59,599 nt of DNA from contig CALVBY010000002.1 of assembly GCA_944325905.1 (NCBI GenBank), forward strand, positions 1-59,599. Direction: 5' to 3'. Source of the stretch: Candidatus Gastranaerophilales bacterium. Lineage in GTDB: Bacteria > Cyanobacteriota > Vampirovibrionia > Gastranaerophilales > Gastranaerophilaceae. Of the stretch, positions 11,835 through 50,421 are shown piece by piece; position 1 is the stretch's first letter, and each line of letters opens with the position of its first letter. The notes under the pieces were generated by a model that did not search any database, was not told the origin of the DNA, and was given only the letters and a program-made list of their open reading frames with translations. Made by a program: the position numbers and the translations under genes.

Positions 11835-11851
11835 TGTTAAAAATTGTTACA
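11835..11851 (+). promoter_or_regulatory. TGTWA-N7-TWACA dyad, copy 2
   Basis: TGTTAAAAATTGTTACA, one mismatch between the arms, lies 117 bp before the ATG at 11952, in the gap shared with the divergent flagellar-type operon. It could affect either direction, but spacing matches the other copies only for the plus-strand gene. Confidence 0.5.
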
Positions 11852-11951
11852 AAAAATAGTTATGTATTTAAAGATTTATCCTTTAAATTCCGTAGTACTA
11901 CATGAATACAAGGAATTTGTTACTAAGTTACGAAAGGAAATTGAAACAAAG

Positions 11952-13658
11952 ATGGGATTAGCAGCATCACAAGCGAGACTATTAACCATCACAGCCAGAA
12001 AATCAGACTGTGAGTTTCAATCTATGCGTTATTCACACGAAAAAATAGCGCTATCCAGAAGTATGACTGATTTATCTAATGAATATCAAAATTCTTTAGA
12101 ACAAACAAAACTTGTATATGACTATTATGGAACCGGTGACGAAACAACTCCATTAAGTTATGGTTTGTTAATGACACCGTCTCAATTGAATGGATATTTG
12201 CCTACTTTGATTACGGATGCATCAGGCAAGGCTGTTTTGAGTAGTCAATATGCAGCGGCTGCAAAAGCTGCAGGTATTCCGCAAGAAGGTCTTGGTTGCT
12301 TACCATCAAGTGATGTGAGAAATAAATTTATACAAGCAATGGCTGATAATGGTCTTATTACACAGCAATCAGCAGATACATATATGGGTATTCAATATGC
12401 TCAATCAATGGGTATGGGTACAACAGATTTGGTCACTACTGAAGTAAAAGAAATGACTTTATCTGAGTTGTTAGAATATTATTCTTCCGGAGAATATGGT
12501 GGAGAAACTTTATATCAGTACAACAAAGATGCTTTAAAGAGCGCATTACAAAATGGCAGATTAAATGAAGTTCAAATTAGAAATGGTGCTGAAACAAGTA
12601 ATTTGGCGGATACAAATTTATCACTAGCAGATATCATATCTGGTGATTATCAGATATTATGTAAGTTGAATTACGAAAAGAAAGATGATAGATGGAGCCA
12701 TATAGGTAGTTTAGCTACTAATCTTGGCAATTTAGATATTTGGGATTGGATGTTCTCAGAATTTGAAAGCCTTTTGAGTGTAAGTAGTGATCCAAATGTT
12801 GCTGCAGCTATTCAATATGCTGAGACACAAACAAGCAAATTATTGGATAAAGAGCAAGGGTATGCATTCCAATTGAAAGGTGAAAAAACCAAAGAAAAGT
12901 CAGGTTGGGAAGGTGTTATCAATTGTATGAATGCGGCATCCAGTCAGAAAGATGGACACACTTGGTCTGGTGCGTTATTCCAACATAGAGATGATGGTAA
13001 ATATGCAACATCTGATTATCTTGGTATAACATGTTATTACAATGATAAACCAGCAAAAAGAAATCGAGCAGACGGTGTTTCAATTGATGTAAGTAATATA
13101 GCAAAAGCTTACCTAACATACTTTGCTCAAGCTATGGAAGGTTTATCAACAAGTGAATACAAAGTTAGTGACGTTGTAAACAATAGAACAGTTGCCGATA
13201 GTCACTTAATTGATGATCAATTTGTGTTTAATATAGTAACAGAAACTGGAGTAAATACAGACCAAGCGTTAATATCAGGTTTCTATGACAGTATATTTAA
13301 CCAAATTTGTACACGTGGTTGGGTTGAAAATAACAACGTAACTGATAATGATTATATGCAAGAAATGTTAAAAACAGGTAAATTCTTCCTTGCAACTTGT
13401 GCGGATGATGGATATTACTACCAAGGTAATTATTCTACTAATACTTATATAAGAGAAATTACGGATGAAGAAGCCATTGCTAAAGCTGAGGCTAAATACA
13501 ATACAGAAAAACAAAAGTTAAACCAAAAAGAAGAAGTTTTAGACTTGAAGATGAAAAATCTTGATACCGAAATATCTTCACTAACAACAGAATATGATAC
13601 TATAAAATCAGTAATTTCTAAAAACATAGAAAAATCTTTCAAAAGATACGATGCATAA
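11952..13658 (+). CDS. MGxAAxQAR-family protein, paralogue 1 (568 aa), unknown function
   Basis: The start is the ATG of MGLAASQARLLTITARKS, chosen because GAAAGGAA precedes it at the same distance as in the two paralogues; the frame is open 36 codons further upstream. Residues 1-60 form a conserved amphipathic helical head, the last 65 residues a conserved coiled coil ending KNIEKSFKRYDA, and about 440 variable residues lie between. No Sec signal or membrane segment is seen. Conserved helical ends around a variable middle resemble flagellar axial proteins in layout, not in sequence. It is divergent from the flagellar-type operon and may be an export substrate, which is inference. Confidence 0.75.
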   Translation: MGLAASQARLLTITARKSDCEFQSMRYSHEKIALSRSMTDLSNEYQNSLEQTKLVYDYYGTGDETTPLSYGLLMTPSQLNGYLPTLITDASGKAVLSSQYAAAAKAAGIPQEGLGCLPSSDVRNKFIQAMADNGLITQQSADTYMGIQYAQSMGMGTTDLVTTEVKEMTLSELLEYYSSGEYGGETLYQYNKDALKSALQNGRLNEVQIRNGAETSNLADTNLSLADIISGDYQILCKLNYEKKDDRWSHIGSLATNLGNLDIWDWMFSEFESLLSVSSDPNVAAAIQYAETQTSKLLDKEQGYAFQLKGEKTKEKSGWEGVINCMNAASSQKDGHTWSGALFQHRDDGKYATSDYLGITCYYNDKPAKRNRADGVSIDVSNIAKAYLTYFAQAMEGLSTSEYKVSDVVNNRTVADSHLIDDQFVFNIVTETGVNTDQALISGFYDSIFNQICTRGWVENNNVTDNDYMQEMLKTGKFFLATCADDGYYYQGNYSTNTYIREITDEEAIAKAEAKYNTEKQKLNQKEEVLDLKMKNLDTEISSLTTEYDTIKSVISKNIEKSFKRYDA

Positions 13659-16160: not shown

Positions 16161-16230
16161 TTATTAGCTATAAAATAGCAAAAAAAAACTTTTTTGAGTT
16201 TTGTTCTGTGTAAAAGATTTTGATAAGCGT

Positions 16231-17751
16231 ATGAATATAATATTTTCTACCCCGCAAAATATATCATTTACAAATCGCACTTCGCCCAAAAAATATCAAA
16301 ATTTGTCCGGTGTTGAAAACTTGCCGTGCGCTATCTGCGGAAATAGAATGTATACTAAAAAAGAGTTGGAATATATTCTTGATAGCTTTACACCAAGTAT
16401 TGCTTCTGTTTTCAAAGATAAGGAATTCGAGAGTTATAAAGATACGAATGCATATTCTCTTTTAAAGGAGCTTGCTAAAAAACATCCAAAAACACCTATT
16501 AAAAATGCCGTAAAGGACGAGGATTTTACAATTAAGTTTCAATTTCTACCTGAATATACTCAACAAGTTATAACTGAAATTGTAGCAAAGGCATCAAAAA
16601 ATAAAATAATTGCAGCCAATGTTATTAAAAAGATTGAGAAGTTAAAACCAGCATTTGGAGAAGAAGAAGTTGATATCTTTAATGCTCTAAAAAAATATGC
16701 GGAAAAATATCCTGACAAATCTTTTTCAGAAATTTTTAGTTTATCTGAAGTTTACCAAACTCATTTAGAAAATATAAGAAGCTATAAGAGTAGCAGATTT
16801 CCAAAAGTTAATGAAATAATGGAAAATATTAGAACTTTGGGGAAACAGCTTCCTGTTGAAGAACAAGATGAGTTAAGTATTATAGAGAATGAAGTTGTCA
16901 GACCCTTGATAGATAGAATATTTTTCAATCCATACTTGCGTAATAAGAACAAAGAAATATTGACCGATATCTATACTGGTGAGCAATTATACAGAGAAAA
17001 TTACGCTTATAGGACATTAACTAAAAAAATCAATATTTTAAGTCAATACGAAGATTTGCGTAAGCATTCGTCAAACCCAAAAGTAATGGCTAAAATTTGT
17101 GAATTGGCTAAAGAGCTTCCTTTTGAAACAAGGTTAGTTGATTTTTTCATATTAGATGCCGCTAAAAATCATAAATCCGACAGGGATATTATTTGGGACT
17201 TATTGAGTAGAGTCGTAAATTCTTACGATCATATTATTCCAAGATCAAAAGACGGCTCAAATGATTTGTCTAACGGGCTTAGAGTCCACAAATACTGCAA
17301 TGAAGAACGTGATGTTATACCATACTCGATTTTTAGTATGTACAAAGTTGGCTTGAATGAGAATATTCAAAAACAGATTTCAAAAATTGCCAGTCTAATA
17401 ACCAATGAAAAGCTTCTTAATAGTGACGAATATCCTACTTCAGTGAGGGAAACATTATTGGAAGCATCTGATGGTAGAATAATAATTGATACGGATAGTT
17501 TTGTTAAAAATTACCAGAATATGATTGCTAAAAAAGCTAAAGGTATAAATGAAAGCAAAGAAAGACTCTTTGCGATTGTGGAACATTATAGGAAAATTAA
17601 TAATTCAATAAGTGAAAAGATTGAAGATTTGACAAAAGAAATAGAAGAATTGAAAGAAAATAAGAAAACAAATAAAAAATTGATTAAAAATGCACACAAG
17701 TGTCTAGAAGTTCTTATGCATGAGGAAATTAAGTTAGAAAAAAAAATATGA
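16231..17751 (+). CDS. HNH endonuclease-like protein with long insertion between zinc knuckles
   Basis: This 506-residue protein has an N-terminal CAIC knuckle (about 33-36) and, near 330-362, an HNH-like core: DHIIPRSKDGSNDLSNGL, then HKYCNEERD. In usual HNH proteins the two zinc knuckles are tens of residues apart; here about 300 mostly helical residues lie between, and the second knuckle reads HxxC rather than CxxC. The last 80 residues are a lysine-rich coiled coil. The ATG at 16231 is preferred over a TTG ten codons earlier. Nuclease activity is inferred from the motif; no immunity or target partner is seen. Confidence 0.65.
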   Translation: MNIIFSTPQNISFTNRTSPKKYQNLSGVENLPCAICGNRMYTKKELEYILDSFTPSIASVFKDKEFESYKDTNAYSLLKELAKKHPKTPIKNAVKDEDFTIKFQFLPEYTQQVITEIVAKASKNKIIAANVIKKIEKLKPAFGEEEVDIFNALKKYAEKYPDKSFSEIFSLSEVYQTHLENIRSYKSSRFPKVNEIMENIRTLGKQLPVEEQDELSIIENEVVRPLIDRIFFNPYLRNKNKEILTDIYTGEQLYRENYAYRTLTKKINILSQYEDLRKHSSNPKVMAKICELAKELPFETRLVDFFILDAAKNHKSDRDIIWDLLSRVVNSYDHIIPRSKDGSNDLSNGLRVHKYCNEERDVIPYSIFSMYKVGLNENIQKQISKIASLITNEKLLNSDEYPTSVRETLLEASDGRIIIDTDSFVKNYQNMIAKKAKGINESKERLFAIVEHYRKINNSISEKIEDLTKEIEELKENKKTNKKLIKNAHKCLEVLMHEEIKLEKKI

Positions 17752-17828: not shown

Positions 17829-17916
17829 GTTATTTTAAGATTTTTTTAAGGGGAAATGGAGTGAATATCTTCAGCTGTAGCCGCAACCGTAAAAGCCGGA
17901 ACACTCGAGAAATAAC
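17829..17916 (+). promoter_or_regulatory. Cobalamin riboswitch-like aptamer
   Basis: The core follows the cobalamin element order: GGGAA (17852), GTGAAT, AGCTG, then GCCGCAACCGTAA (about 17879-17892). A degenerate B12-box-like AAGCCGGAACACTCG follows. GTTATTTT (17829-17836) and GAAATAAC (17909-17916) can close it as P1. A small hairpin, ATCCA...TGGAT, comes next. Recognised by eye; a covariance-model search is needed. Known members turn genes off when B12 is bound. The expected P2/P3 extensions are short, so this could be a variant or a decayed copy. Confidence 0.6.
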
Positions 17917-17961: not shown

Positions 17962-18005
17962 TCCTCTTATGATTACTCAAAAATTTGAATCAAAGAGGAT
18001 TTTTT
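17962..18005 (+). terminator. Terminator/SD-sequestering hairpin of the riboswitch
   Basis: TCCTCTT plus TGATT pair with AATCA plus AAGAGGA (17988-17999), with one bulged base and a 13-base loop, followed by six T. The 3' arm contains AGAGGA, the ribosome binding site for the ATG at 18007, so the hairpin could stop transcription or block translation. GGTTGT (17958-17963) next to the 5' arm could instead pair with GCAACC in the aptamer core, giving a plausible switch. Confidence 0.7.
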
Positions 18006-18006
18006 G

Positions 18007-18693
18007 ATGAATTTGTCAACGGTACATACTCAAAATACAAGAGTCGGCACATGCCCTCATGGTTTACCGCTTGGCGCATGTCCTATATGTAACGGTATGT
18101 CCGGGGGTGGCGGGGCGAAAAAGGCTGATTTTTCAGCAAAACCCGGTGAAATGAGTTGGAATGAATGTGCTGCGATAGGGGCATTTTTAAAAGCGCAAAA
18201 AGCTGCACAACAAGCCAGAGAAACTCAATTTCAGGCGCATCTGCAGGCTCTTGCAAAGTTTCAATCAACAATGGCAAATGCTGCACAAAGAGCGGCTCAG
18301 TTTGCTCAAATGATTCAAAATTCCATGCCTCCTATAATTGCAAAACCTCTTGCATTTGTAATGAACAATATAGTTGCAAACGGATTAAATGTTATAAAAA
18401 ATCTTCCGGTCGCAGTCGCAAATTTTGCGCAAAATATTTCGCAAAAATTAGCTGATATTACCGATAAATTAACTTCAATATATGGTGAAATCAAGGCGGC
18501 AATTTTAAAGAAAGTTTCGGAAACGTTTAAAGAAATTAAGAAAAAAATCAAATCAATTTTTGGAATTTTTGAACCGGCAGATTCTGATAATAATGATAAA
18601 AAGGTCGATGAAGCAAAACGTACTTTTGAATTGAAGACTTTTATACATAAATTGTATAAAAAACTAACTGAAAGTGAAGAAGATGAACGTTAA
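18007..18693 (+). CDS. Unknown protein with CPHG...CPIC metal-binding-like motif
   Basis: This 228-residue protein starts at the ATG after AGAGGA; a TTG lies one codon upstream. An N-terminal CPHGLPLGACPICNG (about 16-30) offers Cys and His metal ligands, followed by a glycine-rich stretch. The rest is an alanine- and glutamine-rich helical region (about 55-150) and a lysine-rich tail. No membrane segment is clear. It is the first gene behind a cobalamin-type leader and overlaps the next gene by 11 bases. Metal or corrinoid handling is a guess from context. Confidence 0.7.
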   Translation: MNLSTVHTQNTRVGTCPHGLPLGACPICNGMSGGGGAKKADFSAKPGEMSWNECAAIGAFLKAQKAAQQARETQFQAHLQALAKFQSTMANAAQRAAQFAQMIQNSMPPIIAKPLAFVMNNIVANGLNVIKNLPVAVANFAQNISQKLADITDKLTSIYGEIKAAILKKVSETFKEIKKKIKSIFGIFEPADSDNNDKKVDEAKRTFELKTFIHKLYKKLTESEEDER

Positions 18694-20173
18694 TCAATTT
18701 AGAGATCCGGAGACGGTCAGACAAAGCAGAAATTTGACACCTAATCAGAAAAGAACCAATGCTTATACAAAAGAGGGTGTTATAGTTAATAGTTTCTATA
18801 AAGACAATCAAAAGTCAGTAGATTTACAAGATACTTATGATGCATTAATAATTTCCAATGATACCAGATTGCCTAAAAAGCTTACAGAGAAAGAGACTTC
18901 TGCTGACAAAAGACTTTTGCCTATAAGTGGAATTGTTGTAGGTGTTATGGGTGCTATTGCGCTTTTGACTTCATTTGTAAGGCGTAATGCTAAGATTAAT
19001 TTGAGTATTTCAAATATGAAAAAACTGCCTGCTACGACAAGAAACGTTGCATTAAATGAGGAAACTCACCAAGCAATATATCAGATGATACAAGCGCCCA
19101 ATCAAAAGACAATTCTGGCAGGAACAGGTGTTTTAACATTAACGGCCATGGCGTTTATGGGTAAAACCTTCTTCGACGGATATAAAGATGTTTGGGTTAA
19201 AAAACGTGAAGCAGATATCCAAAAAAATCTTCAAGAAAATCTTATAAATGTTGAAACGCAATCGTTTTCAGGTAAAATGCAGATTATAAGAAGCATGTTG
19301 GCAAAACACGCTATTGAATTCCAAAAATACCTTTCAGATGACAGTGATCAGATTTTACCTAATTTCGGAAGGAAAAAATTCAATCCTTTAATGTTTACAG
19401 GTAAAAATGATGAGCAAAAAAGTAAAAATAATGCCTTGAAATTTGCAGCGTTGGGCTTGGGAACATTCGCTTCCATATTGGCTTTGGGCTATATTTCAAT
19501 CAGAAATTTGAGTAAAGGTAAAACCCATTTGGATCAGTATGTAAAAGATACTAAAACTGTAATTAAGACTATTGTAGGACAGTCAACCGAAGCAACAAAA
19601 GATACGGACAAATTAAATTTAAAACATATGTTTCGTGCTATTGGCGCCGACTCTGAGGATATAAGAGAATATACCCAAAGATTGAAATGGGATAAGGATG
19701 AAATTGCAAAATTTGAAAAGGAAGTAATTGAAGAAGTTCAAACATCAACCACGAAAGTAAATGAAGCAATGGGTGGTGATGGAACTCCAAAACCATCGTT
19801 CTATTCTCATGTGGATGATTATAGGGCATTTTTCTACAATTGGCTTTTGGATACTTCAAACCCTCAATTCAAGCAGTTATTTTTCGGTATAACGGGATTA
19901 ACTGCATTGGGGTATGGTGGAAAACTCGTTGGTGATGCTATAAAAGACGTTCAGGTCAAAAAAATAAATGCAGAAACAGAACTGCAGCTTCAAAAACGAC
20001 TTGTTTCTACCGAATTAAGAAATTTTAAATCTAAAAAGGATGCTGCAATTCAGCCTCTAGTGGACGAATTTTATCGTCAGGTTGATGCAGGTAAATCAAA
20101 AGAAGAATTAAAAACAATGGCAGAAAATATATTATATGAAATCAAAAATGGTGCTCCATTTGTATATTCATAA
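18683..20173 (+). CDS. Multi-pass membrane protein of unknown function in the riboswitch-controlled operon
   Basis: This 496-residue protein starts at the ATG overlapping the previous stop; a GTG three codons earlier is possible. Four hydrophobic segments are seen near 80-100, 148-168, 252-275 and 407-427. Charged, helical stretches separate them, with matching VWVKKREADIQKNLQ and VQVKKINAETELQLQKRL segments after the second and fourth. This suggests an internal duplication. No known family was recognised. It probably acts in the inner membrane together with its two neighbours. Confidence 0.7.
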   Translation: MNVNQFRDPETVRQSRNLTPNQKRTNAYTKEGVIVNSFYKDNQKSVDLQDTYDALIISNDTRLPKKLTEKETSADKRLLPISGIVVGVMGAIALLTSFVRRNAKINLSISNMKKLPATTRNVALNEETHQAIYQMIQAPNQKTILAGTGVLTLTAMAFMGKTFFDGYKDVWVKKREADIQKNLQENLINVETQSFSGKMQIIRSMLAKHAIEFQKYLSDDSDQILPNFGRKKFNPLMFTGKNDEQKSKNNALKFAALGLGTFASILALGYISIRNLSKGKTHLDQYVKDTKTVIKTIVGQSTEATKDTDKLNLKHMFRAIGADSEDIREYTQRLKWDKDEIAKFEKEVIEEVQTSTTKVNEAMGGDGTPKPSFYSHVDDYRAFFYNWLLDTSNPQFKQLFFGITGLTALGYGGKLVGDAIKDVQVKKINAETELQLQKRLVSTELRNFKSKKDAAIQPLVDEFYRQVDAGKSKEELKTMAENILYEIKNGAPFVYS

Positions 20174-20183
20174 GAGGTAAAAT

Positions 20184-20645
20184 ATGTACTTACAACCTGT
20201 TAATAATTTATATCAAAGTTATCAATATCCGCAATTACCTAATGCCAAAAGGAATTATACAATAGTGGATCAAAATAAAGTTGATGTATTTGTGAAACAG
20301 GGTGAAAGTGCTTTACCATATATATCGGATGTCTTGTCTCATTCAAACAATGAGGAACAAATCACCGAAACGTTATATATACTGGATAGGATGATAGATA
20401 GTGGGACCAAAAATATTGATAAAATGTATCCTGTTTTATCAAGATTTAATAATACAAGGTCACCAAATATTCAAACTTTTTTGGCGGGAATTTACAGAAA
20501 AATTCAAGTACCGGATGCTTTTGGCCCGTTGGTTAAGATGTTAATACAAAATTCTCAAAACCCTTATCCTAATGCGTTTTTCGATCCTAATGAAGAAATT
20601 GGTGGTGCGATTTTGAGTTATTTGTCGGATAGATTCAGACATTAG
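20184..20645 (+). CDS. Small HEAT-like helical protein of unknown function
   Basis: This 153-residue protein begins with a short tyrosine- and glutamine-rich segment. The rest is regularly spaced amphipathic helices (ALPYISDVLSHSN, TETLYILDRMIDS, TFLAGIYRKI, FGPLVKMLIQNS) resembling HEAT-type repeats, which usually bind proteins. It has no membrane segment or signal. It follows the membrane protein by 10 bases after GAGG and is the last gene of the riboswitch-led unit. A dyad for the next gene starts 4 bases after its stop. Confidence 0.65.
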   Translation: MYLQPVNNLYQSYQYPQLPNAKRNYTIVDQNKVDVFVKQGESALPYISDVLSHSNNEEQITETLYILDRMIDSGTKNIDKMYPVLSRFNNTRSPNIQTFLAGIYRKIQVPDAFGPLVKMLIQNSQNPYPNAFFDPNEEIGGAILSYLSDRFRH

Positions 20646-20755: not shown

Positions 20756-21799
20756 ATGGGTATGGCAGCGTCACAAGCTAGATTTTTAGGTCTGACGGCC
20801 AGAAAAAGCAATGTTGAGTACGAAGGTCAACAGATTAACCAACAACGTACAACATTAGCTAACCAGTCAGCAAATTATTACAATGATTTGCTTGGTATGT
20901 CCGTGCCGACACCTCCTTCTGTTGATAGTTATACTAAAACAGTATATACATTTAATGATGGTGCTTTGACAAACACTGTAACTTCATTGATCGCACAACA
21001 AGACGGTACATATACTTTGAGCTATTTGTCCCAATATGAGGATGATTTTACTCCTGTTTCTGCGGCTACAAGCGTTGTTAATTCTGATAATGGAACATAT
21101 AGAGTAGGCTCTGTTGTTTTAAGAGAGTTAGGTCAACCTATTCAAAGAGATGCTGAAGGCAAATATGTAGGTAATCCGCCGGATGAGTATTTAAGCTCTT
21201 TATCTAAGGACCAATTGGATGCTTTAGAAAAAGAAGAACAGTCTTATGTTGATTTGTTGAATGAAAAATATGGAACACAACAAGACGGTTGGATGGTTAG
21301 ATATGCTGAAAATTCATCAACAGGTGTTTGGTCTCCATATTTCTATAAAGTATCAGAATTAAATAATGGAGTTGTTGATCAAAACAACAATATTACATCA
21401 GCTGTAAGTTGTTATACTATGGGATCTTCTACCAAGACTTCTGAAATTAAGGGCGTTGAAGGCTGCTTAATAGAGAAAGATTCAACCGGAAGATATATTT
21501 CAATCAGTATTCCAAATGATGCAGGTAGTTTTACTACTTATACATTGACTACATCTACTGTAACTGATCAAGATGCATATGATGATGCCATGAATCAGTA
21601 TGAGTATGACAAATATTTGTATGATCAATCTATACAAGAAATTAATGCTCAAATTGAGATTATACAAGCTCAAGATAAAAACCTTGAGTTAAGGTTGAAA
21701 CAACTTGATACTGAACAAGATGCAATTTCAACAGAAATGGATGCAGTACAAAAAGTTATCGAGAAGAATACGGAGAGTTCATTTAAAACCTTCGGATAA
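20756..21799 (+). CDS. MGxAAxQAR-family protein, paralogue 2 (347 aa), unknown function
   Basis: The start is the ATG of MGMAASQARFLGLTARKS, preceded by GAAAGGAA; the open frame extends eight codons further. The head (1-50) and the C-terminal coiled coil (about 285-347, ending KNTESSFKTFG) match the paralogues at 11952 and 42231. The middle (50-280) is unrelated, Thr/Ser/Tyr-rich and beta-like. No signal peptide is seen. It is a single gene with its own dyad and terminator. Function unknown; surface or exported structural protein is a working idea. Confidence 0.75.
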   Translation: MGMAASQARFLGLTARKSNVEYEGQQINQQRTTLANQSANYYNDLLGMSVPTPPSVDSYTKTVYTFNDGALTNTVTSLIAQQDGTYTLSYLSQYEDDFTPVSAATSVVNSDNGTYRVGSVVLRELGQPIQRDAEGKYVGNPPDEYLSSLSKDQLDALEKEEQSYVDLLNEKYGTQQDGWMVRYAENSSTGVWSPYFYKVSELNNGVVDQNNNITSAVSCYTMGSSTKTSEIKGVEGCLIEKDSTGRYISISIPNDAGSFTTYTLTTSTVTDQDAYDDAMNQYEYDKYLYDQSIQEINAQIEIIQAQDKNLELRLKQLDTEQDAISTEMDAVQKVIEKNTESSFKTFG

Positions 21800-31344: not shown

Positions 31345-31366
31345 ACGCCTATAAAGGCGTTTTTAT
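31345..31366. terminator. Intrinsic terminator between coiled-coil gene and folD
   Basis: ACGCCT pairs with AGGCGT with a four-base loop and T-run on the plus strand. The minus-strand side has a weaker A/T flank. Confidence 0.75.
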
Positions 31367-32200
31367 ATTTTGTTTTTCGAAAAGTTCTATGGTGTTTAGC
31401 ATCAGTGAAGCTATTGTCATTGGTCCTACACCGCCCGGAACCGGTGAAATATATGATGCTATTTTGGAAACATTTTCAAAGTCAACGTCTCCGCGTGTTC
31501 TACCCGTTGAATCTTTGAAAATTCCAACATCAACGACAATGCAACCAGATTTTAACATTTTTTCTTCTATTATATTTTCCCCTACTGCAGAAACAAGAAT
31601 ATCTGCAGTTTTTGTTATTTCTGCAAGATTTTTTGTATGGCTATGACAAATTGTTACGGTTGCATTTCTATTCAAAATCATCTGTGAAAGCGGTTTTCCG
31701 ACTATATTCGAGCGTCCAACTATGACAACATGTTTACCGTCAAGGTCAATATTGTATTCATCAAGTAATATTAAAATTCCTTTTGGAGTGCAAGGGTATA
31801 CAAATGGTTTTTCACCTGAGAAAAGTTTACCAAAATTATACGGAGTAAAGCCGTCAACGTCTTTTTGAGGGTTAATAAGGTTAATAACTTTCTCCTTAGA
31901 AATGTGCTCAGGTAATGGTAGTTGCACAAGAATTGCATTCACTCTGTCATCTTTATTTAGTTCATGAATTTTCTCTAAAAGTTCTTTTTCAGAAATTGTT
32001 TTAGGGTATTTAATAATATTTGAATTTATACCTATTGCTTCAGCAGTTTTGCGCTTATTATTAACGTAAATTTGGCTCGCAGGATTATCACCTACCAAAA
32101 TGACAGTAAGTGATGGTTTTTTTTCAAAATTATTTATTTTTTCTTTTAATTTGAGTAGAATTTTTTCTTTTAATTGTTTTCCGTCAAGAATTATCGTCAT
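31349..32200 (-). CDS. folD: Methylenetetrahydrofolate dehydrogenase/cyclohydrolase
   Basis: This 283-residue bifunctional enzyme interconverts 5,10-methylene- and 10-formyl-tetrahydrofolate. The YVNNKRK active-site region is near 45, followed by VQLPLPEHI near 98. GRSNIVGKPLSQMIL is in the NAD(P) site near 160 and PVPGGVGPMT near 255. It is the last of a tight three-gene unit with a CooC-like ATPase (1-base gap) and a MetE/UROD-like protein, which suggests one-carbon metabolism. Confidence 0.95.
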   Translation of the reverse strand: MTIILDGKQLKEKILLKLKEKINNFEKKPSLTVILVGDNPASQIYVNNKRKTAEAIGINSNIIKYPKTISEKELLEKIHELNKDDRVNAILVQLPLPEHISKEKVINLINPQKDVDGFTPYNFGKLFSGEKPFVYPCTPKGILILLDEYNIDLDGKHVVIVGRSNIVGKPLSQMILNRNATVTICHSHTKNLAEITKTADILVSAVGENIIEEKMLKSGCIVVDVGIFKDSTGRTRGDVDFENVSKIASYISPVPGGVGPMTIASLMLNTIELFEKQNIKTPL

Positions 32201-32201
32201 A

Positions 32202-32954
32202 TTACCTCATTATCTGTGGTAGATTAAGTCTGAAATAAAATTGTTTGATTGCATTTTCAACTACTTTAGATTCTTTCTCTACGGGTTTTTCTTCAAGAGA
32301 TTTATCGTAAGGAATTACCCCCAGAACGTCCAAATCATATTTTTTAAGCAATTTATAAACGTTACTCAAATCATCATTGATAACTTTATTAATTACAACA
32401 CCAAGTTGTCCGCCTGCGGCATATTTTGCGCTAAACTCTTCAATTCTTTTTGCAAGATGCGCCGAGTCTTCACTTGGGTTTGCGACAATAATTGTTGTAT
32501 CAACATCAGTGTCTACAAGTTGATTTAAATATTTTAAATCAAATTCGCAATCAAATATAACTATATCATAGCGTTCAATAAGCTTTAGTACTGCATCATT
32601 AATTTGACCTGTTATAGGGCATCGGCAATCCTTTGAGCCTACAAACCAGGAAACTATAATATCAACATTTTCATCCAATGAAACAACGATATCTTCCATT
32701 GCCCATTCAATGAATTCTTGTTTTGTCATGTGTTCAGGAATTCCAGTTTTGTATTCGTGTTTTCCACTTCTTATCCCATAAATTGTATTTCTTATATCTA
32801 AACCAAAGCTATGTCCTAGTTCGCTTGTCAAATCATTATCAAATAAAAGAATACTCTTTTCCGGAAACATTTCTTTTATAATATTTAAGAAAGCTTTTGT
32901 AATTGTCGTTTTTCCGCTTCCGCTTTTACCAATAACAGCAAGTTTAGTTGTCAT
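32202..32954 (-). CDS. CooC-like MinD/ParA-family ATPase
   Basis: This 250-residue protein has a deviant Walker A GKSGSGKTT (near 9-17). A DNDLTSELG switch lies near 38, a VIFDCEFDL Walker-B-like strand near 131, and NPSEDSAHLAKRI near 158. FVGSKDCRCPITGQ contains a Cys-x-Cys pair, typical of CooC metal or cluster sites. CooC proteins activate nickel carbon monoxide dehydrogenase or related corrinoid systems. No CO dehydrogenase gene is present here; its link to folD and the MetE/UROD-like gene suggests a different client. Confidence 0.72.
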   Translation of the reverse strand: MTTKLAVIGKSGSGKTTITKAFLNIIKEMFPEKSILLFDNDLTSELGHSFGLDIRNTIYGIRSGKHEYKTGIPEHMTKQEFIEWAMEDIVVSLDENVDIIVSWFVGSKDCRCPITGQINDAVLKLIERYDIVIFDCEFDLKYLNQLVDTDVDTTIIVANPSEDSAHLAKRIEEFSAKYAAGGQLGVVINKVINDDLSNVYKLLKKYDLDVLGVIPYDKSLEEKPVEKESKVVENAIKQFYFRLNLPQIMR

Positions 32955-33999
32955 TATACCTCTCTTTTAAGCTATTCGACAGTTCATATGTCAACTTCAT
33001 GGCTTTTTCTGCCAGAGTTTCAGATAAAGATCCTGCACCACAGGTTGGCGTTACAAAAGAATTGTCTATAATTAGTTTCTCATCAATTCCCTTTTTAGTC
33101 AAATAGTTAACAGCTTTGTCAAACTTTGATTGCATTGTTTGTAAGTCTGTTTTTTCAAGCAGGGTTGGTGCTTTTGTCGGAATAATTCCCCACGCAATTT
33201 TTCCGCCTCTTTCAAGAAACTGTTCAATTTGCTTATGATAAATACTTAAGTTTTGTGCGTAATGATAAGCATCTAGGCTTATTATCTCAACATTCGATTT
33301 TATAGGTACACTCCAATCGCATTTTCCACAGCAATGTATTGCAGTTATACCGCCATTATTTTTAATTATGTCTATAATTTCTTTTAACATAGCAATGGTA
33401 TCATCTTTTGTTATTGTTATATAAGCTGAAGTTCCAAGTTGTGATATTGTTGGTTCATCTATAAAAATTATGGGTTTTGCCCCTTTTGATTTTATTTTTT
33501 TAACTTGCCATAGTGCTTTTAGAGATAATATTTTTACAATCAATTCCTTTAATGTATCATCATAGATTGCACATCTCCCTTTTTTATCTGTAAGGGTTGT
33601 TGCAAGCGTAAACGGTCCAGTGATTTGCCCTTTTGCATATTGGCAATTATTTTCTCTAATTAAGTCCAAAAACAAATTGAAAGTTGATGAAAAATCACTT
33701 GTTATTGCGAATTTTTCAAGCAATTCCGGTGCATTTTGATTTATTATATTTTCGTAATCAGATAAAAATATTTCAATATCGTGAAAAAATTTTTCATTTT
33801 CTGTATCAAATGAAAAATTTTCATCTTCGGATAAAAAAAATGAAGGCATACCTTCCAAAAACTGGATAGTCATGTCTTCATTTTTACTAACTTTAGATAA
33901 CTGTGGCCAAAAAGGAATATTTTTAAAATATTTTTGTACAGTTTCTATAGCTTTTTGGGGATTTTTATATGGTAATGAGCCTATTGCCAAGCATTCCAT
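32944..33999 (-). CDS. MetE-core/uroporphyrinogen-decarboxylase-like methyltransferase
   Basis: This 351-residue TIM-barrel protein resembles the C-terminal (core) half of MetE and UROD. GQITGPFTLAT lies near 121, then FIDEPTISQLG. HCCGKCDW near 217 and TPTCGAGS near 325 provide His/Cys ligands for a zinc. MetE itself is about 750 residues; this is the core only, as in short methionine synthases. It overlaps the CooC-like gene by 11 bases. Methyl transfer to homocysteine, possibly from a corrinoid, is inferred. Confidence 0.7.
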   Translation of the reverse strand: MECLAIGSLPYKNPQKAIETVQKYFKNIPFWPQLSKVSKNEDMTIQFLEGMPSFFLSEDENFSFDTENEKFFHDIEIFLSDYENIINQNAPELLEKFAITSDFSSTFNLFLDLIRENNCQYAKGQITGPFTLATTLTDKKGRCAIYDDTLKELIVKILSLKALWQVKKIKSKGAKPIIFIDEPTISQLGTSAYITITKDDTIAMLKEIIDIIKNNGGITAIHCCGKCDWSVPIKSNVEIISLDAYHYAQNLSIYHKQIEQFLERGGKIAWGIIPTKAPTLLEKTDLQTMQSKFDKAVNYLTKKGIDEKLIIDNSFVTPTCGAGSLSETLAEKAMKLTYELSNSLKERYNDN

Positions 34000-41103: not shown

Positions 41104-42231
41104 TTAGCTGAACATACTGAATGATTTTTCTACGTTCTTGTCAACTACGTTCTTGACAGATTCATATTCAGTTTGTAGAGCATTGTGTTCGGTATCTATT
41201 TTTTTCAATTCAAGGTCTATATTTTGATCTTTCTTCTCTAAAGATGCAATTTCTTGATTGTATTTCGCTTCAACCAGAGCAATTTCACGTTCATCTTCAA
41301 CCTCTTGGATTGCATCATCGTCGCTTACTGTTGTTGAAACAAATGATTTGTCAGTTGCAGAATAGTATTGCAATAACAATTTACCCTCTCGGATTTGTTG
41401 TTCAAACCAAGCATCATCTTTTATTGTGTCATTTTCATTTTGTTCTGTATAGTAGCCTGCTGATGCCATTTTGTTAAATATGTTTCTCAAGTAAGATATA
41501 TAACCTGATTCAACATCGTTTGCAGTTTGTAGTGCAATAGTTGCGGCGGAGTCTTTTGGATTGTAGGTTCCGTCACCATAGAATTGTGTTGTAATTGCTA
41601 CTGCATAATCATAAAGTTCACGTTGTTCTTGGGTTGTCCCTTCATAGTTTATTGCTTTGGTTTCACCGTTGATTGTATAAGTAGGATAACCATTATATAA
41701 TTTGTTGTCACCAAAAGATTGGTATCCGTATTGAATTTCAGCGTTACCTTCTTCGTGCTCTTCGTCATCAAAGTTTATTCCTACAGATGTGAAATATTTA
41801 TCCCAAGCTTCATGGATTTTTGTTTGAGCTTCATCGTCAGATATGTCATCTATGTCCGCTTGAGTATAACCTAGTTCTGCTAAGAAAATGTTAAAATCAC
41901 CGTTTCCGGCTTCAAATGCTTTTGCTTGTTTATCTGTAACTAAAATTTTTCCTTTTGCATTGGTTACTATATATTGTCTTCCACAAGCAACAGTGTTGTA
42001 ACCTGTCATCAGATTATACGATATATCTGAGTAATTAGCTATTGTTCCGTTAAAACCGGTAAGTACTGTTAATTTTGTTGCAGATAGAGCAGCAAGATAC
42101 TCTGTATTTAATTGCTCTGTTTCATCCGCAAGACGTTGTTTGGAATATGAAAGTGCTTGACCACTGGCTTCATTATCACTTAGTCTTGCAGTAATGCTGA
42201 GCAAACGAGCTTGTCCTGCTGCCATTCCCAT
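41104..42231 (-). CDS. MGxAAxQAR-family protein, paralogue 3 (375 aa), unknown function
   Basis: The protein starts MGMAAGQARLLSITARLS after GAAAGGAA, confirming the start chosen for its paralogues. Residues 1-65 form the helical head, about 310-375 the coiled coil ending KNVEKSFSMFS, and the middle differs from both other copies. No signal peptide is seen. It is a single gene with a dyad upstream that overlaps the 3' end of the HAD-like gene. Function unknown. Confidence 0.75.
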   Translation of the reverse strand: MGMAAGQARLLSITARLSDNEASGQALSYSKQRLADETEQLNTEYLAALSATKLTVLTGFNGTIANYSDISYNLMTGYNTVACGRQYIVTNAKGKILVTDKQAKAFEAGNGDFNIFLAELGYTQADIDDISDDEAQTKIHEAWDKYFTSVGINFDDEEHEEGNAEIQYGYQSFGDNKLYNGYPTYTINGETKAINYEGTTQEQRELYDYAVAITTQFYGDGTYNPKDSAATIALQTANDVESGYISYLRNIFNKMASAGYYTEQNENDTIKDDAWFEQQIREGKLLLQYYSATDKSFVSTTVSDDDAIQEVEDEREIALVEAKYNQEIASLEKKDQNIDLELKKIDTEHNALQTEYESVKNVVDKNVEKSFSMFS

Positions 42232-48241: not shown

Positions 48242-48432
48242 ACTTAAAATTATAGTTATTGTTTGGATTTATGTCAATGTTATACAAGTTTTTGAAAAAT
48301 TAACTTGTGTTACAGTTTTGGCATGTTGTTGCAAGTGGTAAAAAACTGATGTAGAATTGTATAATAATCATGCTTTTAAGCATGCTTAAGGGATTGTATA
48401 ACAAATTTTAGATAAAGGCTATGGAGGTTAAT

Positions 48433-50421
48433 GTGGTGGAAAACAGTTCTACGTGTGTTGAAGATTTATGCTTGTCCGAAAACGCAGTAAAAGTTCTTGA
48501 AAAAAGATATCTCAAACGTGACAAAGACGGTAATTGTACAGAAAAACCGGCTGATATGTTCAGACGTGTTGCAAGTTCTATTGCAGCGGGTGATTTCAAG
48601 TTTGGTGCTTCTCAATCTGATGTTGATAAATTAACAGAGAGATTTTATAAGGCTATTACAAATCGTTATTTTATGCCAAATTCACCGACTTTGATGAATG
48701 CAGGTCGTGAATTGGGACAATTGGCGGCATGTTTTGTTTTACCGGTTGAAGATTCTTTGGAAGGTATTTTTGAAACTGTTAAAAATACTGCATTAATTCA
48801 TAAATCCGGCGGAGGTACTGGTTTTTCATTCTCAAGATTAAGACCTAAAAACAGTGTTGTAAGGTCTACAATGGGTGTTTCATCAGGTCCGGTATCTTTT
48901 ATGGAAGTATTCAATGCTGCAACAGAAGCTGTTAAGCAAGGCGGTACAAGACGCGGTGCGAATATGGGTATTTTAAGAGTTGATCACCCTGATATTCTTG
49001 ATTTTATTGAATGCAAGTCTGATAACAATAAATTAAACAACTTCAATATTTCCGTTGCAGTTACTGACAAGTTTATGGAAGCATACATAAACGGAACTGA
49101 TTATGATTTGGTTAATCCGCAAAATAATCAGGTTGTTGGAAGATTAAGCGCTAAAAAAGTGTTTGATATGATTGTTGACGGTGCTTGGAGAAATGGCGAG
49201 CCGGGTATTGTCTTTATTGACAAGATGAATGCTGACAACCCAACTCCTTTAATCGGTCAAATTGAATCTACAAACCCTTGCGGCGAAGTTCCTTTGTTGG
49301 CTTATGAAGCTTGTAACTTGGGCTCTATTAATTTGGGCAGAATGGTTAAAGAAACATCTGACGGGTGTGAAGTTGATTGGGATTTGTTGGCAGAAACAAC
49401 AAGAACTGCTATCAGATTCTTGGATAACGTAATTGCTGTAAATAACTATCCGTTACCTCAAATTTCTGAAATGGTTCAAAATAACAGAAAAATCGGACTC
49501 GGTGTAATGGGTTGGGCAGATATGCTTATGAAAATGGGCATTTCTTATGCTTCTGAAGAAGGTACAAAACTTGCCGGTCAGGTGATGGAATTTATTGATT
49601 ATGAGTCTAAATGTGAATCTATTGAGCTTTCAAAAGAACGAGGCAGATTTAATAATTTTAAAGGTAGCATATATGACAGCGAAAACTATTTGTACAACAA
49701 ATACAAAGGCAAATCTGCAGGAAAAATTTCTGATGAGCAATGGAAAGATTTGGATGAACAAATTAAACAATACGGTATCAGAAATGCTACAACTACATGT
49801 ATTGCTCCAACAGGTACAATTTCAATGATTGCAAGTGCTTCAGGTGGTGTTGAACCTTTGTTCGGACTTGTTTTTTCAAGATTGATTATGGATGGAACTG
49901 AGATGCTTGAAGTTAACCCGATTTTCAAGGATTACATGGTATCTCATGGTTTGTATTCGGAAGAATTGATGCAAAAGATTGCAAAAGAAGGTTCTATCGC
50001 TCATGTGGATGGCATATCTGATGAAGTTAAACATATTTTCGTGACAGCTCACGATGTTTCTCCATACTGGCATGTTAAAATGCAGGCTGCATTCCAGCTT
50101 CATACAGACAATGCTGTTTCAAAAACTGTAAACTTTGAAGAACATGCTACAAGAAAAGATATTGAAGAAGCATACATTTTGGCATACAAGAATAACCTTA
50201 AAGGTATTACAGTCTACAGAAACAATTCAAGACAATTCCAACCTATGAATTTGGATGATAAGAAAAAGACAGAGGAAAAGGTTGAAGAAGTTGTGGAAGA
50301 AGTTTCTGAAGAACCTACAGGTGAAATTAAGACGGTAAAATGTCCTGAATGTGGTAATGAAATTCAAATGGCTGAGGGATGTTTCATATGTCTAAAATGC
50401 GGTTATTCAGGATGTTCATAG
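48433..50421 (+). CDS. nrdJ: Adenosylcobalamin-dependent (class II) ribonucleotide reductase
   Basis: This enzyme of about 662 residues reduces ribonucleotides using a B12 radical. It has FMPNSPTLMNAG near 80, GGGTGFSFSRLR near 120, and NPCGEVPL near 283 with its active-site cysteine; IAPTGTISMIA lies near 460. A zinc-ribbon tail CPECGNEIQMAEGCFICLKCGYSGC is at the end. GGAGG lies 5 bases before this GTG, so it is preferred; an ATG four codons earlier (48421) has a poorer site. No class I nrdAB is in the window. It fits with a B12-type leader elsewhere. Confidence 0.92.
   Translation: MVENSSTCVEDLCLSENAVKVLEKRYLKRDKDGNCTEKPADMFRRVASSIAAGDFKFGASQSDVDKLTERFYKAITNRYFMPNSPTLMNAGRELGQLAACFVLPVEDSLEGIFETVKNTALIHKSGGGTGFSFSRLRPKNSVVRSTMGVSSGPVSFMEVFNAATEAVKQGGTRRGANMGILRVDHPDILDFIECKSDNNKLNNFNISVAVTDKFMEAYINGTDYDLVNPQNNQVVGRLSAKKVFDMIVDGAWRNGEPGIVFIDKMNADNPTPLIGQIESTNPCGEVPLLAYEACNLGSINLGRMVKETSDGCEVDWDLLAETTRTAIRFLDNVIAVNNYPLPQISEMVQNNRKIGLGVMGWADMLMKMGISYASEEGTKLAGQVMEFIDYESKCESIELSKERGRFNNFKGSIYDSENYLYNKYKGKSAGKISDEQWKDLDEQIKQYGIRNATTTCIAPTGTISMIASASGGVEPLFGLVFSRLIMDGTEMLEVNPIFKDYMVSHGLYSEELMQKIAKEGSIAHVDGISDEVKHIFVTAHDVSPYWHVKMQAAFQLHTDNAVSKTVNFEEHATRKDIEEAYILAYKNNLKGITVYRNNSRQFQPMNLDDKKKTEEKVEEVVEEVSEEPTGEIKTVKCPECGNEIQMAEGCFICLKCGYSGCS

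Follow-up and report, generated by a model that had tools for sequence, protein, structure and literature searches.

A cobalamin riboswitch-controlled gene unit of Gastranaerophilales as a candidate corrinoid acquisition system

Introduction

The question raised by this locus is what three adjacent genes of no recognised family do behind a leader of the cobalamin (B12) riboswitch type. The genes lie in a stretch of 59,599 nucleotides (the window) from a Candidatus Gastranaerophilales (Melainabacteria) bacterium, whose assembly comprises 1.6 Mb in 92 contigs and whose order consists of gut bacteria with a kinship to cyanobacteria. An earlier reading of the letters alone (the sequence-only reading) suggested that the genes could form a new corrinoid or cobalt handling system in an organism that uses a B12-dependent ribonucleotide reductase. 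The proteins that import B12 are unknown in many B12-dependent bacteria, as has been stated for prokaryotes (PMC6072759). This study was concerned with the leader, the three proteins and their distribution, using a set of 59 related genomes, which are mostly incomplete MAGs, and a scan of GTDB species genomes. The GTDB scan overlaps the 59-genome set in part, with at least one locus in common (L178 is a contig of G032).

Results

The leader and its hairpin

The leader proposed by the sequence-only reading is a real cobalamin riboswitch. The match to the AdoCbl-II model covers its full length (cmscan and alignment), scores above the gathering cut-off, and is the sole Rfam match in the whole window (Table 1). 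Downstream of the aptamer, the 3' arm of a predicted hairpin carries the Shine-Dalgarno site for gene A, with seven bases separating the arm from the ATG at position 18,007. Judged from the sequence and its fold, this conserved hairpin can sequester the ribosome site. In 71 of 108 leaders the site is covered by a stem of 6 bp or longer, compared with 13% when the upstream part was shuffled, and in three leaders (L113, L071 and L069) the sequence of the stem is altered while the pairing is kept. Both the frequency of these stems and the still-paired variants fit an OFF switch that would act on translation. The full-length aptamer scoring over the curated cut-off and the hairpin able to hide the ribosome site are features of known AdoCbl-II riboswitches, whereas the genes controlled here belong to families without known function. 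A gene for an HNH-endonuclease protein, for which PF01844 is barely over its cut-off, stands alone upstream of the riboswitch (16201-17751).

Table 1. Positions in the window of the riboswitch, the leader hairpin and the three genes.
Feature	Positions	Strand	Description
AdoCbl-II (cobalamin class II) riboswitch aptamer	17831-17914	+	Rfam RF01689, 45.9 bits against a gathering cut-off of 36.5
Predicted ribosome-site-sequestering hairpin (expression platform)	17962-17999	+	TCCTCTT (17962-17968) pairs with AAGAGGA (17993-17999)
Gene A	18007-18693	+	228 aa, of no known family; motif CPHG-x-P-x-G-x-CP-x-C-x-G..GGG at the N-terminus, followed by amphipathic/coiled-coil helices
Cys/His motif of A	18052-18090	+	CPHGLPLGACPIC, residues 16-28; putatively metal- or corrin-coordinating
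Gene B	18683-20173	+	496 aa membrane protein; a block of membrane helix and long charged helix, present twice
Gene C	20184-20645	+	153 aa compact, all-helical (HEAT/ARM-like) soluble protein; AlphaFold2 pLDDT 88

The three proteins

All three genes exist as the sequence-only reading had described them, and its statement that none is recognised was borne out across all family libraries tried. No specific match to A, B or C was obtained in Pfam, NCBIfam, PADLOC, PHROGs or PDB. The matches of A to coiled-coil-type families (CSF-1, tape measure) in the first four libraries were weak, those of B and C were scattered and below threshold, and all were treated as compositional. Sequence searches of the PDB returned coiled coils only for A and nothing credible for B or C. 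None of the three proteins was found to be like a transporter or a corrin-binding fold, and the unit encodes neither an ATPase nor an outer-membrane component.

Gene A encodes the protein noted earlier for its CPHG...CPIC residues. Within its Cys/His motif, C16, P17, H18, G19, G23, C25, P26 and C28 are invariant in an alignment of 47 homologues (alignment A1), and the amphipathic helices that follow the motif are poorly conserved in the same homologues. In four genomes of family f3 (L128, L129, L130 and L131), paralogues of A were observed that have neither the Cys/His motif nor the switch.

The start of gene B overlaps the end of gene A by 11 nt. B had been described as a four-helix membrane protein with an apparent internal duplication. 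The duplication held when one half was compared with the other by hhalign (residues about 145-210 match about 399-465, probability 98.1%, E about 1e-13). The four helices held in part: in a simple hydropathy scan two of them (81-99 and 255-273) are strongly hydrophobic, and the other two, which fall within the duplicated blocks, are less so. The alignment of B (alignment A2) contains 47 homologues, and none was found on phages or plasmids. The AlphaFold2 model of B is all-helical and of low confidence. Because its pLDDT is only 64, Foldseek matches to long-helix proteins, including pore-forming toxins (E 0.2 or worse, rmsd about 30), were dismissed as meaningless.

For C, which had been called HEAT-like, the AlphaFold2 model agrees with an all-helical protein. 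The nearest folds are generic ARM/HEAT repeats that do not reach significance (the top Foldseek match, with designed ARM proteins, has E 0.05), and no repeat family was matched in Pfam. The conserved residues of C follow the pattern YRK..PDAFGPL...FD..EE.GGA (alignment A3, 37 homologues).

We also asked whether the next gene, at 20756-21799, is a fourth member and decided against it, as it follows C only in close relatives and its family has other copies in the window. The proteins encoded at 20756-21799, 41104-42231 and 11844-13658 are paralogues that start with MG(M)AA.QARxL..TAR and form a family without assigned function.

Conservation of the unit across the order

The leader proved to be conserved together with the genes. 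Among the 59 relatives, AdoCbl-II riboswitches were found in 54 and gene A in 48, and a cobalamin riboswitch stands just upstream of A in 47 of these 48. In 43 it is an AdoCbl-II riboswitch on the same strand, 57-355 nt upstream of A, and in three it is a class I cobalamin riboswitch, RF00174 (L079 7108-7279, L123 5213-5372 and L126 1913-2083). In another (L074 4560-4664) the switch was missed by the Rfam model at E 5 and was found with a model built from the other leaders (E 1.5e-10); its insertion repeats part of its own 5' half (AAGGAAAGCAGGGTGAGC...AAGGATGTCTGC). Only G053 carries A with no cobalamin riboswitch before it. The occurrence of class I in some genomes and class II in others suggests that the aptamer class before gene A changed in place.

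The GTDB species genomes gave 269 loci that encode A, and 36 of the 40 checked have an AdoCbl-II riboswitch above the cut-off before A. In the same scan A was directly followed by B at every one of 80 loci, and all 67 loci with room for C contain it. A and B occur without C in family f3, G045 and G018, and the genes that flank the unit vary between genera. As judged from gene order, A-B is the conserved core and A-B(-C) is one compact unit. B was found in 162 genomes of Gastranaerophilales. Among 386 genomes of the phylum no other credible occurrence was seen, the two matches outside the order both being marginal.

Distribution against B12 use, import and synthesis

The B12-dependent ribonucleotide reductase named in the sequence-only reading was confirmed in the window (NrdJ, 48421-50421, TIGR02504, 744 bits). 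The source genome encodes NrdJ, including the barrel domain, and two CobA-type adenosyltransferases. It was found to contain no FecCD/BtuC permease (PF01032), no TonB plug domain (PF07715), no CobS, no PduO and no B12-binding domain above cut-off. The envelope is diderm, judging by the RND pump and its OEP outer-membrane channel that are encoded in the window. On the reverse strand at 31349-33999, the window also holds a FolD-like gene, a CbiA/CooC-type ATPase (PF01656) and a 351-residue protein with no Pfam match, which we take to be reminiscent of MetE/UroD-type methyl-transfer proteins. This region is possibly concerned with corrinoid-linked methyl transfer.

In the relatives, A is present in 40 of the 42 NrdJ-bearing genomes that have neither BtuC nor CobS, the exceptions being G010 (85% complete) and G038. 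BtuC or CobS occurs in 6 of 46 A-bearing genomes with NrdJ and in 5 of 7 that have NrdJ and lack A (Fisher p 0.003, a test that ignores shared ancestry and treats genomes as independent, which they are not). The sequence-only reading had said that it would be refuted if the genes were widespread without this leader and in genomes that do not use B12. The distribution contradicts that pattern, as NrdJ is present in 46 of the 48 A-bearing relatives and A is missing from two non-users (G031 and G048), in which NrdJ, CobA and the switch are all absent. G033, also with no NrdJ and no CobA, lacks A as well. The link between A and B12 use is not strict, because G018 and G024 keep A with neither NrdJ nor CobA and six genomes hold both A and BtuC.

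Other targets of the switch

Of 86 AdoCbl-II matches in the relatives, 43 precede A, and about 30 of the other 43 were inspected. These mostly precede known B12-related genes (examples were confirmed by Pfam), namely btuB with btuC, btuD and btuF; nrdD with nrdG; metE; cobT; an OprB porin; and CbiM. For example, the anaerobic reductase genes nrdDG follow an AdoCbl-II riboswitch in the source genome itself (contig C5). A few of the inspected switches have no clear target. One (L087 5657-6059) stands directly before a 94-residue protein of no known family (MQITKISAPNSYSAAV...). Behind another (L097 6216-8107) the first 25 or so residues of MetE run in frame into a radical-SAM protein, and this join is either a fused remnant or an assembly error.

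Discussion

The regulation and the distribution of A-B-C point to the acquisition or handling of corrinoids (B12). Our preferred reading is an acquisition unit specific to this order and repressed by cobalamin, an assignment that we consider to have about an even chance of being right. In terms of gene content, the unit tracks predicted B12 use where the classical importers and synthesis are missing. It is the best candidate for an unrecognised B12 route, because it is found in nearly all B12-requiring members that have no known importer or synthesis. A new corrinoid system of some kind is well supported by these comparisons of genomes, and uptake would be its most likely role, since the conserved core includes a membrane protein and A is anticorrelated with BtuC and CobS.

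If the unit serves uptake, the following mechanism may be proposed. When cobalamin is plentiful, it would bind the aptamer and translation of A, with B and C coupled to it, would be shut; when cobalamin is scarce, the three proteins would be made. B, with its twofold repeat, would be an inner-membrane protein on which C may dock as a helical-repeat scaffold, and the Cys/His motif of A may coordinate either the cobalt of the corrin or a structural zinc. Because the unit encodes no ATPase, B12 would enter by facilitated passage, or its entry would be coupled to its trapping by the two adenosyltransferases of the CobA type, a scheme already proposed for the unrelated BtuM. In its fullest form, with A capturing the corrin and B passing it inward with no ATPase of its own, so that a diderm order takes up B12 with no BtuB, BtuCDF or TonB receptor, the proposal is tentative, and we think it somewhat more probably wrong than right. 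The mechanism accounts for entry at the inner membrane only, the genome having no TonB receptor for the outer one. It also assumes that the genome has no ECF-type importer elsewhere, and another B12 importer may exist elsewhere in the source genome.

Several known systems can be compared with the unit. BtuM is an ATPase-free B12 transporter with a cysteine near the cobalt, for which trapping by adenosyltransferase has been proposed, and it is found in B12 auxotrophs that have no BtuCDF (PMC6072759). It is a single protein of about 22 kDa with six membrane helices and occurs with BtuB (PMC6072759). The proposed likeness to A-B-C would consist of a membrane protein, a cysteine near the cobalt, no ATPase of its own and trapping by adenosyltransferase. 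However, here there are three unrelated genes, a duplicated four-helix B and no TonB receptor, and no homology was seen between A-B-C and BtuM. B does not show the six-helix fold of BtuM and ECF S-components: two of its membrane helices are strong and two weak, it contains a duplicated block, and Pfam gives it no ECF match. As to a cysteine that serves as axial ligand of the corrinoid, the invariant Cys/His motif of A is suggestive. In sister genomes (L082, L085, L086, L089, L091 and L093) this class of riboswitch also governs the BtuB-BtuCDF system, but that system has a TonB receptor, a FecCD permease, an ATPase and a binding protein, and A-B-C has none of these. Pfam gave no match in A, B or C to BtuCDF or to the plug and beta barrel of BtuB, and the permease and plug families are absent from the whole source genome. 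Lastly, cobalamin riboswitches were observed before OprB-type porins in two sister genomes, both of which lack A (L101 5399-7878 in G050 and L090 2318-3988 in G038). These porins are accompanied by CbiM/N or divergent from CobT, and they are candidate B12/cobalt outer-membrane channels. They are likewise envelope genes under B12-switch control, whereas none of A, B and C is a porin.

Other explanations for the unit have to be weighed against uptake. The three proteins could instead handle corrinoids in the cell or at the membrane, as a chaperone, in decyanation or base removal, in storage or in delivery to CobA and NrdJ, with an unseen ECF or other transporter doing the importing. The evidence from regulation and distribution is shared by both explanations; A is soluble and its Cys/His motif invariant, and C is a helical-repeat scaffold, a combination that looks closer to handling than to pumping. 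Six genomes also retain A alongside a complete btu operon. We regard handling as possible but doubtful, as the conserved core A-B includes the membrane protein B, and the NrdJ users without A mostly have BtuC or CobS, which import fits better. Since the same switch class controls nrdDG in the source genome and metE in relatives, replacement genes also belong to this regulon, and A-B-C might be a B12-independent substitute used when B12 is short. Such a substitute should persist where B12 use has been lost, but the three genomes with neither NrdJ nor CobA named above (G031, G033 and G048) have no A, and A, B and C match no catalytic family. We consider a substitute unlikely.

The cobalt alternative of the sequence-only reading fared worse than its corrinoid part, which is supported by the riboswitch linkage in 47 of 48 genomes and by the distribution; nothing favours cobalt over corrinoid. 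The CHCC-like motif of A is of a kind typical for metal binding and CbiM, for cobalt uptake, follows the same switch in G050. Nevertheless, CobS is missing from the source genome and from nearly all A-bearing genomes, so there is little reason to import cobalt for B12 synthesis, and CbiM was seen only in a CobS-bearing genome. We consider it highly improbable that A-B-C takes up or handles cobalt (metal) under the control of B12. That A-B-C is an envelope or adhesion unit which belongs to the B12 regulon by chance and does not itself act on corrinoids would agree with protein families of no known function and with the coiled-coil-like A, but it is very unlikely given that the riboswitch is kept in 47 of 48 genomes and that gene A is missing from clear non-users.

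On what was found, the regulon is already known, and the three protein families and their combination appear to be new, none being like a known B12 system. A literature search of partial coverage found no description of the three families or of their combination, and nothing that joins Gastranaerophilales with the riboswitch. An order whose members are common in the gut appears to need B12 for its DNA precursors, yet mostly shows neither a classical importer nor synthesis, and this gap in B12 supply appears to be filled by one conserved unit under riboswitch control. If A-B-C imports or handles B12, it would be a new kind of B12 system. This would give three protein families their first functional label and would help to account for the ability of these bacteria to compete for B12 among gut microbes.
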